Assembly (NCBI RefSeq): GCF_016785945.1
Contig: NZ_JAEMEF010000003.1
Span: 1 to 64,000 of the forward strand
DNA length: 64,000 bases
Direction: 5' to 3'
Source of the DNA: Olleya sediminilitoris
Lineage (GTDB): Bacteria > Bacteroidota > Bacteroidia > Flavobacteriales > Flavobacteriaceae
The position numbers and the translations under genes were made by a program. The notes under the pieces were generated by a model that was given only the letters and a program-made list of their open reading frames with translations, was not told the origin of the DNA and did no database searches. Shown here piece after piece: positions 1 through 6,844 of this stretch; position 1 is the first letter of the stretch, and each line of letters opens with the position of its first letter.

Positions 1-36
1 CAGAGCTTTATCAATTCTCCCAAATTGATTAATAGC
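1..36 (-). ncRNA. Predicted small RNA, unit A (cut by the window edge)
   Basis: Operator 69-90, -7 box 41-48, and first hairpin 10-29 are present. Only the 5' arm of the terminator (1-9) is inside the window, so the array very likely continues leftwards. Confidence 0.6.
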
Positions 37-108
37 ACTGTAAAGGTAGAGTGAATATTAGAGATATGAAATACGTAGAACTACGTATTTTTATTTGTAG
101 TAGGTGTT

Positions 109-175
109 AAAAAAAAGCTCCAAAACAATAAACTGTTTCAGAGCTTTATCAATTCTCCCAAAATTGATTAATAGC
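109..175 (-). ncRNA. Predicted small RNA, unit B
   Basis: Operator 208-229, -7 box 180-187, first hairpin 148-168, terminator hairpin 114-147, U-tract 109-116. The inner terminator stem carries one change (AATA for AGTA on the plus strand). This is the last complete unit before the window edge. Confidence 0.7.
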
Positions 176-247
176 ACTGTAAAGGTAGAGTGAATATTAG
201 AGATATGAAATACGTAGAACTACGTATTTTTATTTGTAGTAGGTGTT

Positions 248-312
248 AAAAAAAGCTCCAAAACAGTAAACTGTTTCAGAGCTTTATCAATTCTCCCAAA
301 TTGATTAATAGC
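248..312 (-). ncRNA. Predicted small RNA, unit C
   Basis: Operator 345-366, -7 box 317-324, first hairpin 286-305, terminator hairpin 252-285, U-tract 248-254. This copy has the shorter UUUGGGAG form of the loop. Confidence 0.7.
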
Positions 313-384
313 ACTGTAAAGGTAGAGTGAATATTAGAGATATGAAATACGTAGAACTACGTATTTTTATTTGTAGTAGGTGTT

Positions 385-451
385 AAAAAAAAGCTCCAAA
401 ACAGTAAACTGTTTCAGAGCTTTATCAATTCTCCCAAAATTGATTAATAGC
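385..451 (-). ncRNA. Predicted small RNA, unit D
   Basis: Operator 484-505, -7 box 456-463, first hairpin 424-444, terminator hairpin 390-423, U-tract 385-392. This copy has the longer UUUUGGGAG form of the first-hairpin loop region. Confidence 0.7.
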
Positions 452-524
452 ACTGTAAAGGTAGAGTGAATATTAGAGATATGAAATACGTAGAACTACG
501 TATTTTTTATTTGTAGTAGGTGTC

Positions 525-591
525 AAAAAAAAAGCCCTAAAACAGTAAACTGTTTCAGAGCTTTATCAATTCTCCCAAATTGATTAATAGC
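525..591 (-). ncRNA. Predicted small RNA, unit E
   Basis: Operator 624-645, -7 box 596-603, first hairpin 565-584, terminator hairpin 531-564, U-tract 525-533. It shares the AAAGCUC/GGGCUUU wobble-paired terminator with unit F. Confidence 0.7.
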
Positions 592-664
592 ACTGTAAAG
601 GTAGAGTGAATATTAGAGGTATGAAATACGTAGAACTACGTATTTTTTATTTGTAGTAGGTATC

Positions 665-730
665 AAAAAAAAGCCCTAAAACAGTAAACTGTTTCAGAGC
701 TTTATCAATTCTCCCAAATTGATTAATAGC
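665..730 (-). ncRNA. Predicted small RNA, unit F
   Basis: Operator 763-784, -7 box 735-742, first hairpin 704-723, terminator hairpin 670-703, U-tract 665-672. The terminator 3' arm is GGGCUUU, which pairs with AAAGCUC through one G-U. The body is nearly identical to units A-E. Confidence 0.7.
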
Positions 731-803
731 ACTGTAAAGGTAGAGTGAATATTAGAGATATGAAATACGTAGAACTACGTATTTTTTATTTGTAGTAGGT
801 ATC

Positions 804-873
804 AAAAAAAAAGCTCCAAAACAGTAAACCGTTTCAGAGCTTTATCAATTCTCTCATAAATTGATTATTCAGC
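804..873 (-). ncRNA. Predicted small RNA, unit G (diverged)
   Basis: Operator 906-927, -7 box 878-885 (TACATTTA), first hairpin about 844-866, terminator hairpin 810-843, U-tract 804-812. The first-hairpin loop carries UAUGAGAG instead of UGGGAG, so the GGGAG signature is altered, while the arms AUCAAUU/AAUUGAU are kept. A U-to-G change in the terminator inner stem is tolerated by G-U pairing. Confidence 0.65.
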
Positions 874-946
874 ACTGTAAATGTACTGATTATGAACGAT
901 ATATGAAATACGTAGAACTACGTATTTTTTATTTGTAGTAGGTATC

Positions 947-1014
947 AAAAAAAAGCCCTAAAACAGTAAACTGTTTTAGAGCCTTATCAATTCTCCCAAA
1001 ATTGATTAATAACC
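947..1014 (-). ncRNA. Predicted small RNA, unit H (regulator-proximal, diverged)
   Basis: Operator 1047-1068, -7 box 1019-1026, first hairpin about 986-1006, terminator hairpin 952-985 with U-tract 947-954. The terminator arms read GAGCCTT and AAAGCCC on the plus strand, but in RNA all seven positions still pair (two through G-U). The 20-nt operator-to-box spacer differs strongly from the other units while keeping its length. The transcription start is estimated from the -7 box, within about 4 nt. Confidence 0.65.
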
Positions 1015-1046
1015 ATCGTAAAGGTATAATCAATTTGGGACTTATA

Positions 1047-1068
1047 AAATACGTAGAACTACGTATTT
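1047..1068. promoter_or_regulatory. 7-2-7 palindromic operator (first of eight), overlapping the response-regulator stop codon
   Basis: A perfect inverted repeat contains the heptamers TACGTAG and CTACGTA separated by AA. NarL/FixJ-family regulators are known to bind 7-2-7 inverted heptamers starting with TAC. The centre lies 35 nt upstream of the centre of the -7 box at 1019-1026 (minus strand), about -42 to -45 from the expected transcription start, which is a typical activator position. The stop codon of the response-regulator gene (1059-1061) sits inside it. Binding by that regulator is an inference from family, geometry and adjacency. Confidence 0.75.
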
Positions 1069-1700
1069 TTAATAACCTCTTTATTAAGATTAGCCCATAA
1101 CATTAATTCGTTATGAGACCTTTTTAGATCAAGTTTTTTTACAATATTACTACGGTGTTTTTCAATGGTTCTAGGAGAACTCATAAGTTGTTTTGAAATA
1201 TCTGTAGTGCTTAATTTTTCAGCTAAAAGCTTTACTACTTTAATTTCTGTAGGTGTAAGCTTTTCTAATAACGAGTCGCTACTATATGTAACTTTTGAGT
1301 TTAAATACGAAGCTATTTCTTCACTAAAATAAGGTTCTCCTTTTATAACATTAGCAATGCATGTTTCTATTTCTTCAACTGCAAACTCTTTTAAAATGTA
1401 ACCATACACGTTACAAGCTCTAGCTTTATCAAACAAATGCTCTTCATTATCAAAGGTAATTAGTATGATTTTGGTTTCTAATTCATTTTTAAAACAAGCT
1501 TCTGCAACTTCTAAACCAGTCATTTTTGGCATTCTTATATCCAATAACGCAACGTCTGGTTTTAATTTTACAATTAAATTATATGCTGTTTGACCATCTT
1601 TAGCACTTCCTATAATATTAAAACCTTTAGAAGTAATAAAGTCTGATAAACCTCGTAGCATTAAAGGGTGGTCATCTGCGATGACAATGGAAACACTCAT
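1059..1700 (-). CDS. NarL/FixJ-family response regulator transcription factor
   Basis: 213 aa. The N-terminal receiver domain shows the acidic pair D9/D10, phospho-acceptor D54 in LLDIRMP, T82 and K104, so all key residues are present. Residues about 148-196 form a LuxR-type helix-turn-helix (LTPTEIKVVKLLAEKLS ... RTIEKHRSNIVKKL). Such proteins bind DNA as dimers on inverted heptamers after phosphorylation. It is the last gene of the minus-strand run that includes the CHAT and retropepsin-like genes, 58 nt after the latter. Its stop codon lies inside the first operator of the sRNA array, which it may control. No histidine kinase is encoded nearby, so the phosphate donor is unknown. The leader at 1713-1730 is complementary to the sRNA hairpin loop. 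Confidence 0.9.
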   Translation of the reverse strand: MSVSIVIADDHPLMLRGLSDFITSKGFNIIGSAKDGQTAYNLIVKLKPDVALLDIRMPKMTGLEVAEACFKNELETKIILITFDNEEHLFDKARACNVYGYILKEFAVEEIETCIANVIKGEPYFSEEIASYLNSKVTYSSDSLLEKLTPTEIKVVKLLAEKLSTTDISKQLMSSPRTIEKHRSNIVKKLDLKRSHNELMLWANLNKEVIKNT

Positions 1701-2211: not shown

Positions 2212-4755
2212 TTATCTTTTTCGTATTACAAAGTATAAAAGTAAAGCAATTGCCATACCAACAAAAGTAAAAAGAAGATAATTTAAGTTATAAGTGTTGT
2301 TTTTTGCTGTAACTGCACCATAATATATAAACGGACTCCAGTAATAAGGAGATTTCTTAATGTTAGAAATAGCTTTATTATTTAGGTAATCTATTTTTGA
2401 TAAATGATTAGCAACAAAAGCAGAATGTGTTGACTTGTAATGTTTATAAAAAGAAGCCATGACTTGAGAGGTGGATAAATCATTAATTTTCCATAAAGAA
2501 AATAAAATATTCTCTATTCCAGCGTACTGAAAACCTCTAGGTAAATTCATACTACCTTCTCCTTTGTGTAATCTACCAATACCAGTTTCGCAAGCACTTA
2601 AAACGACTAAGTTGTTGTTTAATTTAAGGCTGTATAATTCGTTTAAAAATAATTTTTGATCAATAAAGTCTATGTTAGCTGGTATTCTAAAAGTTCCGCT
2701 ATTGGCATGTGTTGATAAGTGTAATACATCATAATTTTTTGCCTGTTGTAAAGCTTCATTTTTAGTAGCTTTGTTATACATCAAAAACTTTGCGTTACTA
2801 TTTTTTTTGATGCTTTCTACCTCTTTCAAAGAGTGAGTTAGTGTCGTATTTGTGTTTTCAAAAACAGGAAACACACCTAATACTTTATTACTGTAAATAA
2901 AAGGATTTTGATTTAGGTAAAATAATGCACTTGTGTTATAGGCTAATACTTGTGTTTTGGCCACAAAAGGCATTTTAGAAAAGCTTTGTGTAGATGTTTG
3001 TTGGGTTAAAAGTGTTTCAAAAGGAATAAAATTTAAAAAGCTATCTGCAATCACAATAACATTAGGTTGTCCCTTCACATGATTAAATCCTAACAATTGA
3101 TATAACTGATAAGCATCAGTAGTATATTTGGTTATATTATTATTAATGTTAGAAGAATTATCAAAATACGTTATGTAGTTAGTTATAGCAGTTTCAAATT
3201 CAGGAGTTTTTTTAATTTTAAAAAAAGCTATCGCTTTCGCGGAAATTTTAAACTGAAATATAGCTGTTTCACCATAAAAATATTCGATTAAAACAGCTTG
3301 GTCTTCTGCTAATTTTTGCTGTAGTTTTTTAATTGAAACTTCAGATTGATTTATACCTGAGTACTTTAGATTAATTTGATGATTTAACTGTTTTAAAGTT
3401 TGACTAACCTCTAATAAATCTTGACTTAAACTATTTATTAGTTTGGCATCTTGTTGGTATTGTGCTTTTATCAATTTATTGGTTAATCGCTCTTGTTCCT
3501 GTAATCGGATTTGCTCTTGTATTAATAAACTGTCTTTTGGGTGTAATTGTAATAATGAAGTTTTACCTATGGTTTCTTTTAATACGGAAGCTTTATTTTT
3601 TTCAGCGTATTTAAATGCATTAACTATTAATGTCGAGTCTTTGTTGGTAGTATATTGGTCATATAATAGAGATATGCAAGATTCACTTCGCTTTCTATTA
3701 TTGGACAAATGCATTAATTTTGCTTCCTGAGAGGTTAGATTTTTAGTTAATACATTAGAAACATAAAAACTAAGGTCATAACACGATAAACTTTTTTTAT
3801 AATTGGTTTGGAGTCTTGCCAATAAATCAAAAATGTCAATAAAGGTGTTTTCGGCATATAAATCTTCTTGTTTAGGAAGTGTTTTTGAATTGTAATTTGG
3901 TAATAACGTTTTTAAAGCTAGTTGTAATTGTTTTGATGAATTTTTAAAATCGTTTAATTTATAATGAAGTTGGGCTTCTTCAAACTCTAACTTTGCTTTA
4001 TCTCTAACCGAAAGTAAGTCTTTTTTTAAAGACACATATTTTAATTGAAAGTAATGTAATGCTAGTTTGTAATCTTTGTTTTTTAATGCTAATTGATACT
4101 GTGTTTCGTTATCAGGATTACTGTGTACTATTTTAGTCTCATTTATATTTTGGGTTTTAATAGAGCAATTGGTTATGATGCGTTTTAATTTTTGTTTTTG
4201 AGTATCTAAAACAGAGTGTAGTTGTAATCCAGCTTTAGCAATTTTAATTGCAGCTTTATAATTACCGATAGTGTAATATAGTTGAGCTAAATTTATGGCT
4301 CCACTAATACGATGTTTGTTGTTTTTTTTCTTTTCTGCTAGAAAAATATAGTGTTTAATGGTGTTTTCTGCATTGGTATAATCTCCTATTTTATTGTATA
4401 ATATACCTAAGGGTTTTAAACAATATTCTGTAATATCATATTTAAAAATAGTATTTAATTTTTGTGTATTGTATAGTTGTAAAGCGTCTTCGTAAACCTG
4501 TATTGCTTCGGTTTGTTTATTACTATTATCTAAATAATTAGCTTTGTTAACCAGTAAAAATAAGTAAGCAAAATAATGATCTTTAGTTACTAGATTTTTT
4601 TTTAAAGTGTTTTCTGTTTTTAAAAGTGTAGAGTAGGTAGTAGGACTCCTTTTAGAGTTAAAAGTTTCGGTTGCTAGGTAAATAGCTTCTTCTAAATCTT
4701 GAGATAGTGTACTACCAAAAACAAGAAAGGTAATTATGAAAAGACTATGTTTCAT
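2212..4755 (-). CDS. TPR-CHAT domain protein (caspase-like protease fold), membrane anchored
   Basis: 847 aa. An N-terminal signal peptide (MKHSLFIITFLVFGSTLS) is followed by many helical tetratricopeptide-like repeats (about 30-480), then a CHAT domain with the catalytic dyad histidine H683 (HLSTHANSG) and cysteine C722 (LSACETG). A C-terminal membrane helix lies at about 823-843, ending RKR. The layout predicts a periplasmic repeat and protease part held by a C-terminal anchor. CHAT proteins are cysteine peptidases related to separase and caspases and often act in signalling or defence. The gene lies 9 nt after the PKD/barrel gene and abuts the retropepsin gene. It carries an exact copy of the 14-mer CGCTTTCGCGGAAA at 3232-3245. 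Confidence 0.85.
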   Translation of the reverse strand: MKHSLFIITFLVFGSTLSQDLEEAIYLATETFNSKRSPTTYSTLLKTENTLKKNLVTKDHYFAYLFLLVNKANYLDNSNKQTEAIQVYEDALQLYNTQKLNTIFKYDITEYCLKPLGILYNKIGDYTNAENTIKHYIFLAEKKKNNKHRISGAINLAQLYYTIGNYKAAIKIAKAGLQLHSVLDTQKQKLKRIITNCSIKTQNINETKIVHSNPDNETQYQLALKNKDYKLALHYFQLKYVSLKKDLLSVRDKAKLEFEEAQLHYKLNDFKNSSKQLQLALKTLLPNYNSKTLPKQEDLYAENTFIDIFDLLARLQTNYKKSLSCYDLSFYVSNVLTKNLTSQEAKLMHLSNNRKRSESCISLLYDQYTTNKDSTLIVNAFKYAEKNKASVLKETIGKTSLLQLHPKDSLLIQEQIRLQEQERLTNKLIKAQYQQDAKLINSLSQDLLEVSQTLKQLNHQINLKYSGINQSEVSIKKLQQKLAEDQAVLIEYFYGETAIFQFKISAKAIAFFKIKKTPEFETAITNYITYFDNSSNINNNITKYTTDAYQLYQLLGFNHVKGQPNVIVIADSFLNFIPFETLLTQQTSTQSFSKMPFVAKTQVLAYNTSALFYLNQNPFIYSNKVLGVFPVFENTNTTLTHSLKEVESIKKNSNAKFLMYNKATKNEALQQAKNYDVLHLSTHANSGTFRIPANIDFIDQKLFLNELYSLKLNNNLVVLSACETGIGRLHKGEGSMNLPRGFQYAGIENILFSLWKINDLSTSQVMASFYKHYKSTHSAFVANHLSKIDYLNNKAISNIKKSPYYWSPFIYYGAVTAKNNTYNLNYLLFTFVGMAIALLLYFVIRKR
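3232..3245 (+). repeat. Dispersed 14-mer CGCTTTCGCGGAAA (exact)
   Basis: Lies inside the CHAT gene, where the coding strand reads it as S-A-K-A. It is one of nine copies or near-copies in the window. Confidence 0.85.
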
Positions 4756-4764
4756 TTGTAAAAA

Positions 4765-6723
4765 TTAAAATTTCCAAATGGCATAAAACTGCATGTAATT
4801 ATAGTTTTCTTTAAAACTAAAAACATAACGTGCACCTACACTTGGTCCTATTCTAGCAAAACCAGCTGTAGCTTCTAGTAAAATACCTGTTCTAAAATTG
4901 GTAAATGACGATGACGTATTGTCTTCATTAATAGTTGTGCTTAAGTTAGGGACAGCAAATGTTCCAGCTTCATCTTCAAAATATGCAGTTGTGGTAGTGT
5001 TTTTATTTTTTTCGCTTATAGATAGCATACCTTGTAAACCAGTGCCTAAACCAATGTAATTATTAATATTATATCTAGCCAAAATTGGTATTTCCCAATC
5101 TATATTGTCATAAGTTGTAGTTGTTGTGGTGCGTTCATAATAAGGAAAGCCAACAGGTGTGTTTTCTACAAACGTATTTGTTACATTAGTCTGTCCATCG
5201 TATTGGTGAAAACTATTTAAAAGTTCTATTTGCCAATACCATTTATAGGATTTGTAAGGTGAAATTGTTGCACCAATAAAATAACTTTTGGAATTGCCTA
5301 AATCTGAAAACGAATTATAGCCTGCTTTTACACCAATGGATAGTCCTGGTAAAAACCTAGTAGTTGAGTAATTGGTGATTATAGGGTCGTTTTTATCAAA
5401 AATGATTGCTGTACGTGATTTTGTTTTTATTTTATGAAAATCCTTGCCAAACTTAATTCTGTATTGCACAAAGCCTTTAGTTGAATCGTATACCTTGACA
5501 TTTTTTTGTTGGCTGCCAGGAAGATAGATATTTTTAAAAGTAAAAATGGCTTGTTTTGCTGTGTAAGTTGTGTCTAAGCAACTAAAGGCAACCTCGTGTT
5601 TTGGGCAAATTTTTACTTTTGGATACATATCTAAAACTTCAATAGTTGCTTTGTCAAACATATCTGGTATGTCTGTTTCTAGTTTTATGGTTGTTGCAGG
5701 ACCTTCTCCATTATTCTGAAATCTAATTTTAAATTTTGGTTTTTTATAACGTACCAATCTATAATTTAAAAAGGTAGCGTTTGAAGACATTTTGTTTGGA
5801 TCATGAGAGGTAACAATTTCCATTTCCATGTCTTTAACATTATGATTGTCGTAGTTGTTATCCGGAATATACACACCTCTTACCGAAATTATTGCACTTG
5901 TGTCCTTAAGCATTTCTGGTGTGGTTTGTAAGGTGTAAAAGACATTGCGTTCTTCGTTGGGTTGCATATTGTCAAAACTTAATTTGCTTACATCTTTGTA
6001 GGTGGATTTGGCTTCTTCTAATGTAAGCGGAAGATTTTGTTTCTCGGTTGAATCAATTGAAGTAACATAATCATGTACGCTTTGGTTTTCCGCGGAAGCG
6101 TAATACACAGTATTGTAGTGTTTAGAGGTGTACACTAAATCATCGTTTTCTAATATGATTTCGTTATGATGAGTTCTGGTATCTGTGATTGTAAAGTTTG
6201 GATTATTGTATTTTAGCTCATTATAAAACAAGTATAACTTTCCGTTTGTTGGATAGTCTTTGGTGTTTTTATATTTAAATATTACAACCATATCTTGTTC
6301 TGGTACAGGCTCTCTGTTACGTTGTAAGTCAATTGCTTGATCCATAGAGGCTTGTTCTTGGTAGTCATCATTTGTTTTATCAATTCTTATTTTTTTTGGT
6401 CTTGAGGTTGGAGGTTTTCCAGTGTCGTAATTGTTTGTAGCCCAAAGTCTGACTTGATAGTCTCCAGAATTTTTATAGGTTTTTGTTGGAGTGTTTTTTT
6501 TGCTATAGGTACCATCTCCAAACTCCCAATAGTTGGTGTAAAATGCTTTTGGTGCTCCTGCTATTTGATTTAGTGTTGGTGCATCTGCATTAAATTGTAC
6601 TTGATTACCATTAGTTTTATGTTGTATAGTTGCAACGCGTGCAACTGTGTCGCTAACTGTTTTTTGTTGTGCAATACTAGAAACGGTATATAAAATAATA
6701 AGTATTAAAGACAGCTTTTTCAT
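4765..6723 (-). CDS. PKD-domain outer-membrane beta-barrel protein
   Basis: 652 aa. A signal peptide (MKKLSLILIILYTVSSIAQ) is followed by a PKD-type domain around 45-110 (YWEFGDGTYSKKNTP), an extended middle region with a DUF7619-like end (IIFDKNDPIITN, about 440), and a C-terminal barrel of alternating strands ending in aromatic residues (QFYAIWKF). It is probably an outer-membrane protein exposing a large domain. It is co-oriented with and 9 nt upstream of the CHAT gene, so it is likely part of the same transcription unit and functional module. The exact role is unknown. Confidence 0.7.
   Translation of the reverse strand: MKKLSLILIILYTVSSIAQQKTVSDTVARVATIQHKTNGNQVQFNADAPTLNQIAGAPKAFYTNYWEFGDGTYSKKNTPTKTYKNSGDYQVRLWATNNYDTGKPPTSRPKKIRIDKTNDDYQEQASMDQAIDLQRNREPVPEQDMVVIFKYKNTKDYPTNGKLYLFYNELKYNNPNFTITDTRTHHNEIILENDDLVYTSKHYNTVYYASAENQSVHDYVTSIDSTEKQNLPLTLEEAKSTYKDVSKLSFDNMQPNEERNVFYTLQTTPEMLKDTSAIISVRGVYIPDNNYDNHNVKDMEMEIVTSHDPNKMSSNATFLNYRLVRYKKPKFKIRFQNNGEGPATTIKLETDIPDMFDKATIEVLDMYPKVKICPKHEVAFSCLDTTYTAKQAIFTFKNIYLPGSQQKNVKVYDSTKGFVQYRIKFGKDFHKIKTKSRTAIIFDKNDPIITNYSTTRFLPGLSIGVKAGYNSFSDLGNSKSYFIGATISPYKSYKWYWQIELLNSFHQYDGQTNVTNTFVENTPVGFPYYERTTTTTTYDNIDWEIPILARYNINNYIGLGTGLQGMLSISEKNKNTTTTAYFEDEAGTFAVPNLSTTINEDNTSSSFTNFRTGILLEATAGFARIGPSVGARYVFSFKENYNYMQFYAIWKF
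6087..6100 (-). repeat. Dispersed 14-mer, one mismatch
   Basis: The minus strand reads CGCTTCCGCGGAAA inside the PKD/barrel gene, coding A-S-A-E. Confidence 0.7.
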
Positions 6724-6844
6724 GTTAGTTATTAATTAATAGCACACTAAATTTAGTAATAAAATAATAGATGCTTGTTTGAGAATCTATTAACGGTAGG
6801 TTTCAGTTAATTAAACGCTAGTTTTAGTAAAGGATTAATATGTG

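Follow-up and report, generated by a model that had tools for sequence, protein, structure and literature searches.

Introduction

Tandem arrays of small RNA (sRNA) genes are already known from NsiR1, and loops in which a response regulator controls sRNAs that act back on that regulator are known from OmrA/B with ompR and from Qrr with luxO. In Vibrio, LuxO activates the Qrr sRNAs, which are Hfq-dependent. The multicopy RNAs Qrr1-5 are described as pairing with luxO mRNA and reducing it (PMC4211561), LuxO being an NtrC homologue (PMC11407668). OmrA and OmrB of E. coli, tandem sRNAs controlled by a response regulator, are reported in the same source to repress ompR; they are two copies, described as having been found partly by Hfq binding. 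In Nostoc, 12 tandem copies of nsiR1 are placed upstream of hetF, a CHAT-TPR gene (PMC9045159, PMC8406250). Multicopy sRNAs under a response regulator are also described as the csRNAs of Streptococcus (CiaR; PMC4211561) and LhrC of Listeria (LisR; PMC5880928), and FopS of Bacteroides comprises 14 paralogous RNAs with a common 5' end seed, which reportedly form bands at ~65 and ~70 nt (PMC11697453).

Here we analyse a stretch of 64,000 nt (the window) that forms the start of contig C22 in the 3.42-Mb genome of Olleya sediminilitoris, whose closest named relatives by response regulator (RR) sequence are Olleya. Its first kilobase holds an array that resembles NsiR1 as described: tandem direct repeats with their own regulated promoters, RNAs of similar size (about 60 nt in NsiR1), near-identical central and divergent peripheral copies, and a CHAT-TPR gene alongside. 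NsiR1, in contrast, is cyanobacterial, HetR-dependent and acts on hetF (as an antisense RNA) and on alr3234 according to those sources, and it sits beside hetF, whereas the array here goes with the RR and not with CHAT; the best match to the NsiR1 family RF02399 reached 21.1 bits against a gathering score of 39. The circuit, by analogy, would resemble OmrA/B-ompR or Qrr-luxO, but in place of two copies there are up to eight units in named relatives, this genome having at least 11, and the array is joined to the regulator gene, unlike the Qrr genes, which are dispersed and belong to quorum sensing. Within the phylum, the nearest systems found are FopS and GibS: FopS is multicopy, ~65-70 nt long and has a conserved 5' seed (PMC11697453, PMC7366714), and both differ, in a comparison by published description only, in their intergenic, antisense or 3'-UTR copies, ordinary promoters and susC targets. 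The csRNAs and LhrC belong to another phylum, and the csRNA target named in the source is comC, not the regulator (PMC4507080). An earlier note on this DNA had named no described system that places such an array after a CHAT-associated response regulator; in its broad form this gives way to nsiR1/hetF (PMC9045159, PMC8406250), where a CHAT-TPR gene does adjoin tandem sRNA genes. For this particular array our literature search, with subscription papers and preprints outside its scope, returned no published report.

An RR-driven, self-limiting sRNA array exerting negative feedback on the RR mRNA would best explain this locus of marine Flavobacteriaceae, and we hold this to be probable from the sequence comparisons set out below. 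If true, it would constitute an RNA feedback circuit common to many Flavobacteriaceae genera, where neither Hfq (unmatched in all 10 genus genomes searched, with matches in 5 of 14 controls) nor CsrA was found, and its parts, from the regulator and its operators to the RNAs, their target site and the micropeptide, would all lie inside a few kilobases.

Layout of the array in Olleya sediminilitoris

In the 64-kb window TRF found a single tandem array, at 1-1070, with a period of 139 and 93% matches. Read on the minus strand, it resolves into eight units of 137-143 nt, seven of them complete, in which operator, -7 box, hairpin and terminator follow one another in the order that the earlier note had proposed. 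The operators (TACGTAGTTCTACGTA, n = 8) are each followed, 23 nt further on, by a -7 box, TACCTTTA, with the variant TACATTTA in the unit at 885, and the box-to-box periods are 139, 137, 139, 140, 139, 143 and 141 nt. Mapping in F. psychrophilum is reported to put flavobacterial -7 boxes between -12 and -5 (PMC9723704), and counting from the box in this way places the predicted starts. Unit 1, closest to the RR, would be transcribed from 1014 to 947 (-7 box 1019-1026; operator 1050-1065, over the RR stop codon; 49.4 bits), the divergent unit 2 from 873 to 804 (-7 box 878-885; operator 909-924; 47.1 bits), unit 3 from 730 to 665 (735-742; 766-781), unit 4 from 591 to 525 (596-603; 627-642), unit 5 from 451 to 385 (456-463; 487-502), unit 6 from 312 to 248 (317-324; 348-363) and unit 7 from 175 to 109 (180-187; 211-226; 65.3 bits). 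Unit 8 (1-36; -7 box 41-48; operator 72-87) is truncated by the contig start, and its model match is cut at the 3' end. The seven starts named earlier thus agree to the base, one more being added at 36, and the predicted ends of units 1-7 give RNAs of 65-70 nt, the length claimed; our transcript-length scripts took a start 2 nt ahead of these. The fold of unit 5 has an energy of -23.6 kcal/mol (z -5.3), which none of 200 shuffles reached.

No ORF of at least 40 aa (ATG, GTG or TTG start, closed at both ends) lies within 1-1058, and no protein runs across the units. CRISPR-like or coding repeats were rejected on the lack of such an ORF and on the periods of 137-143 nt. A known RNA family was likewise rejected: in the window, Rfam 15 gave nothing above gathering score except two tRNAs. 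A phage search yielded a single irrelevant 29-nt match.

The array adjoins the NarL-type RR gene (1059-1700, minus strand; Response_reg 83.7 bits, GerE 40.4 bits), as the earlier note had it. Immediately before the RR on the same strand lies a retropepsin-like aspartic protease gene (1759-2211; Asp_protease_2 42.9 bits), preceded by genes for a TPR-CHAT protein (2212-4755; CHAT 118.2 bits, TPR models under their cut-offs) and for a PKD/DUF7619/DUF7849 protein (4765-6723), an optional neighbour. Before the latter, at 6735-6755 on the minus strand, a promoter-like TAAATTTA with GCTATTAAT forms an sRNA-type 5' leader without an operator, a weak match (19.9 bits, E 0.068).

Contig C3 ends with another three operators (124535, 124672 and 124812), and with the eight of the window they therefore bring the genome to at least 11 units. 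They adjoin an odhB-like gene, which from its sequence we take to be the 2-oxoglutarate dehydrogenase E2 gene, in the order odhB(+), array(-), RR(-). The assembly gap falls within the array, at window position 1 / G000:C3:124857, the copy number being at least 11.

Operator and promoter across relatives

A scan of genome contigs gave 338 RR relatives, of which the best 80 loci were kept. All of these 80 carry at least one unit after the RR, 215 in total (one unit in 4 loci, two in 42, three in 20 and four to eight in 14), when operator, -7 box and core are scored jointly, so that the layout which the earlier note had proposed seeking after NarL-type regulators of other Flavobacteriaceae is indeed found there. 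With distances of 12-35 nt allowed, 164 of 181 pairs have the -7 box 23 nt from the operator, and 15 of the other 17 stand at 33 nt, probably through a shifted palindrome. Promoters with the 23-nt spacing number 164 in the 114 kb after the RR and 8 in the other 2.17 Mb of these loci, a density ~390 times higher after the RR. A blastn search with a unit matched in 27 of 119 genomes, including this one and nine others of the genus, and the covariance model R1, run over 246 genomes of the order, matched in 15 including this genome, mostly weakly; its absence from a genome means little, because no more than 19 candidates from each genome get through the first step of that scan.

The 7-2-7 palindrome is the layout of NarL-family sites. 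The operator here, TACGTAG-N2-CTACGTA, is centred at about -43, a position to be expected of a class-II activator, and the sRNA promoters combine a -7 box with a -33 element that is poor by eye. As the RR is tied to the operator in 80 of the best 80 loci, with fixed spacing, the NarL-type RR probably activates the array: in the first step of the proposed circuit, suggested by promoter anatomy and conservation, it would bind the palindrome and switch on each sRNA promoter.

The palindrome (at most one mismatch) occurs 22 times in this genome, 11 times in the array and 11 times elsewhere, and its backward pattern not at all. Operator and -7 box at 23 nt together mark 23 sites in this genome, 12 of them outside the array, and 140 sites in 10 genus genomes, arrays included, against one for the backward control.

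Structure of the predicted RNA

By sequence, the units are best read as tandem sRNA genes with a promoter each. A terminator hairpin is present in 185 of the 215 units (127 of 135 inner and 58 of 80 last units), compared with 12 of 100 mononucleotide shuffles, and the median transcript, counted from 2 nt ahead of the predicted start, is 69 nt. From 178 of the 185 transcripts, 72 were kept for alignment (58-82 nt, less than 86% alike); in the resulting alignment A1 of 51 rows (49 transcripts and two window rows, one of those entered too short) compensatory changes occur at 13 of 13 terminator pairs, and a second alignment, A2, held 44 transcripts and one row. In the second step, therefore backed by covariation at its terminator, each unit would yield an RNA of ~67 nt in which 9 single-stranded nt at the 5' end, GCUAUUAAU, are followed by a hairpin and an intrinsic terminator. 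Each base of GCTATTAAT at the 5' end is 90-95% conserved across the 215 units, a figure somewhat inflated because the core counts in the unit-scan score; as the same sequence also heads some mRNAs, it may be conserved partly on account of the promoter. The hairpin loop is purine-rich in most units (UUUGGGAG, UUAGGGAG, GAGAGAG or similar), 37 of 215 units having no purine loop motif of these kinds.

These features bear on two readings in which the RNA would not regulate by pairing. A role at the DNA level alone, with the operators titrating the RR or the array being a neutral tandem expansion, would suit the near-identical inner copies in this genome and the range of one to eight units across the best 80 loci, but it leaves aside the terminator covariation, the fixed -7 box spacing and the conserved 5' end, and we find it barely credible. 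The second would make the units decoys for a GGA-binding protein under a GacA-like RR, as RsmX and CsrB are for CsrA. A NarL-family RR, an upstream palindrome and several copies speak for it, as does a purine motif in the hairpin-1 zone of 167 of 215 units against 68.6 in shuffles; yet CsrA exceeded its cut-off in none of the 60 genomes searched, of which this is one, with a single weaker match in another family and with matches in 3 of 14 controls. The CsrA decoy was rejected on that count, and the decoy reading as a whole is very improbable.

Candidate pairing with the RR mRNA

Complementarity suggests the third step, in which the sRNA, through its 5' end, its loop or both, would bind the RR mRNA around the start of translation and reduce RR synthesis. 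The longest perfect match between sRNA positions 1-40 and the RR leader is at least 9 nt in 46 of 80 loci, against 8.0 for dinucleotide-shuffled leaders and 13 loci in the highest of 40 shuffle runs; with related leaders thinned to 35, it is 15 of 35 against 2.8. Matches of at least 9 nt to the leaders of other genes, whose starts were set by tblastn and are possibly off, occur in 0 of 41 loci for DUF7849, 6 of 41 for CHAT, 4 of 80 for the protease, 7 of 68 for odhB and 0 of 32 for a lipoprotein. Against shuffled sRNAs, the mean pairing z is -1.6 for the RR and only -0.4 to 0.5 for these five, whose start regions were rejected as targets.

Both conserved parts of the RNA are matched: a match of at least 8 nt runs through the 5' end in 44 loci (4.5 expected) and through hairpin 1 in 39 (8.9 expected), with both in 23 and neither in 20 of 80. 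At least 8 nt of ATTAATAGC are present in 25 of 80 RR leaders, against 0.4 in shuffles; an antisense promoter behind this sequence was rejected, with a TAnnTT box rightly placed at 0 of 40 opposite-strand GCTATTA. Many RR leaders also hold a pyrimidine stretch suited to the kind of loop that their own genome's sRNAs have (CUCCCAAAA, CUCCCUAA, UUCUCUCUC), and loop and leader site vary jointly, as in L062 (13 nt), L070 (AGGGAGAATTAT), L078 (GAGAGAGAATTT) and L065 (TTTTAAGGGA). Cognate pairs match over 9.3 nt on average and swapped pairs over 8.69 nt; the cognate mean was reached in 0 of 5000 permutations of the sRNA sets, a result inflated by kinship. The cognate edge is modest, with at least 9 nt in 46 loci against 38.9 for non-cognate pairs among relatives that are not independent, and the cognate sRNA set has a median rank of 20.5 of 80.

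In the window, the candidate target is CUCCCAAAA at 1713-1721 on the minus strand, at -21 to -13 from the RR AUG, which complements the hairpin-1 loop UUUUGGGAG and is matched over 8-9 nt by seven of the eight window units and two of the three C3 units. Predicted pairing here is through the loop alone, with suggestive duplex energies equalled by 2-8% of shuffled sRNAs, and unit 2 pairs with the RR leader no better than shuffles do (47% as low). Where a leader has both sites, the 5'-end site is upstream of the loop site; this order being the same on sRNA and mRNA, one sRNA could not form a single simple duplex over both, and two sRNAs or alternative binding would be needed.

The two-part motif TAATAGC...CTCCCT...ATG, derived from these same RR leaders, has a single match in each of 10 genomes out of 12, where its ATG is always the RR start codon, and has no match in L136 and L138, whose RR leaders lack it; its backward control gave 1 hit in all 12 genomes. 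These counts weigh on a further reading, that the RR activates trans-acting sRNAs of the FopS kind, repressing unlinked mRNAs such as those for envelope proteins, with pairing to the RR leader minor or absent. The paralogous FopS RNAs are described as repressing susC mRNAs through their common 5' seed (PMC11697453), and the sRNA core stands under another palindrome in L142 and L144, so the RNA is used beyond this RR. Against this, of the locus genes tested the RR leader is the one that matches beyond chance, and the two-part site is nowhere else in the 12 genomes, which makes the trans-acting reading unlikely, although the sRNAs of a feedback circuit may have further targets as well.

Under feedback on the RR mRNA, the output of the array would probably not be simply dose-scaled, as the earlier note had supposed, since the likeliest target, with complementarity beyond controls, is the RR mRNA itself. 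If sRNA pairing lowers RR synthesis, then array size would set the strength of the negative feedback; and as unit number runs from 1 to at least 11, the relation of sRNA copy number to feedback strength can be tested.

A small membrane protein behind the last unit

In 76 of the best 80 loci, compared with 5 of 80 shuffles, the last unit is followed by an ORF for a protein of 31-53 residues (typically ~33; lengths by script-chosen ATG) with one strongly hydrophobic stretch. The last unit thus doubles as the leader of this gene, on the same strand as the sRNAs, an addition to the earlier description of the array. In this genome the protein (MIDLEK...FIFFK, at C3:124411) is unannotated, and none of the four members scanned had a Pfam or NCBIfam family over cut-off; the comparison so brings to light a ~33-aa membrane protein without a family in either collection, conserved alongside the regulator. 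In the fourth step of the proposed circuit, the outermost operator would also drive this single-pass membrane protein, and the hairpin that usually precedes its gene has a shorter T-run. After the last hairpin the T-run has a median of 4 (n = 69), against 6 in inner units (n = 131; p 1.5e-10, from related rows), as expected if some transcripts read through.

The same unit invites the reading that all units are promoter-leader duplicates, their RNAs being terminated by-products of an attenuated micropeptide leader and functionless when free. That the last unit is a micropeptide mRNA leader, that 58 of 80 last units keep the terminator hairpin and that their T-runs are shorter would all follow from it. 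It does not account for a 5' end and loop that match the RR leader beyond controls, nor for a core that stands alone under another operator, and we judge it distinctly unlikely.

Neighbouring genes and a second locus architecture

The constant core of the locus is the aspartic protease with the RR, found in 80 of the best 80 loci. CHAT, to which the earlier note had tied the regulator, is present in 42 of 80 (in L099 and L105, among the other 38, the contig starts too near to tell) and was dropped as a constant partner of the array; the PKD/DUF7619/DUF7849 gene is present in 41 of 80.

We also hand-picked 40 RR relatives of lower similarity, a part of those at 47-60% identity, and 36 of them have an operator after the RR. 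Classed by hand, with L282 and L305 borderline, 21 have units, 15 have none and 4 lack the operator. The small protein follows in 32 of the 36 operator-bearing relatives (1 of 36 in shuffles), and among the 14 unit-less loci that have it, its ATG lies exactly 35 nt past the operator in 7, which is the predicted start site and therefore points to a leaderless mRNA. A histidine kinase gene stands between the protease-like ORF and the RR in five of five sampled unit-less loci, whereas the protease-like ORF directly precedes the RR in five of five sampled unit-bearing loci. Pfam was run on all five kinases and two of the ten proteases: the kinases have HisKA_3 and HATPase_c over cut-off, and four of them match TPR models, three above the cut-off. 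Seven nt of ATTAATAGC are present in the leaders of 8 of 21 unit-bearing and 0 of 19 unit-less relatives, with several leader windows shifted and the start codon taken a few codons inside the RR. A midpoint-rooted RR tree with 67 rows, made up of these 40 and of 27 taken as one in three from the 80 loci, groups the classes, with 2 changes for 'units' against 16.7 in shuffles. The idea that the kinase-bearing form is ancestral was dropped, the tree being only midpoint-rooted, with units on both sides.

We offer, as a tentative idea about which we are ourselves doubtful, that these are two alternative restraints on one regulator: in some Flavobacteriaceae a kinase form, ordered protease, histidine kinase, RR and micropeptide, with the micropeptide often on a leaderless, RR-driven mRNA and without an sRNA, versus in others an sRNA form without a kinase gene in the operon, whose units would target the RR mRNA. 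In the latter, RNA-gene copy number would tune the RR, and array size would act as gain control for a mobile gene regulon of dispersed, cassette-like accessory genes behind the same operator.

Related promoters and RNA-like units elsewhere

Dispersed operators precede accessory genes, in one orientation, on G000 contigs C5, C10, C12, C15, C32, C34 and C37 (L025-L031) and in G004 (L151). The dispersed sites examined form a repeated element of 150-190 nt, mostly ending in ...TATAACNAGTT followed by variable bases, somewhat in the manner of an integron attC; an integron reading was rejected, no integron integrase being over cut-off in 10 genomes.

In L142 (G053:C1, ~486298) and L144 (G026:C1, ~126823) the sRNA core GTGCTATTAATTAGTTCTTAGGGAGAATT and a terminator-like hairpin lie under a different palindrome, AATACTCAATTTGAGTATT, perhaps the site of a second regulator of the same RNA. 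GCTATTAATCA heads the leaders of secreted-looking protein genes in L141 (G003) and L146 (G049) without a TACGTA operator, and one of the two proteins is curlin-like in its repeat pattern, by eye. The leader TACCTTTACGATGCTATTATT of another NarL-type RR gene (G000:C6:26753-26773) closely resembles the sRNA promoter with its 5' end. At G000:C32:168084-168104 a short terminated RNA-like unit without an operator starts with GATTGCTATTAATC, and the ORF after it resembles, by eye, prolipoprotein diacylglyceryl transferase. Further RNA-like units with other bodies, in L234 (G150) and in L235 and L238 (G166), have TGCTATTAATCA at their start and a terminator-like hairpin at their end, so that RNAs with this 5' end may form a wider class.
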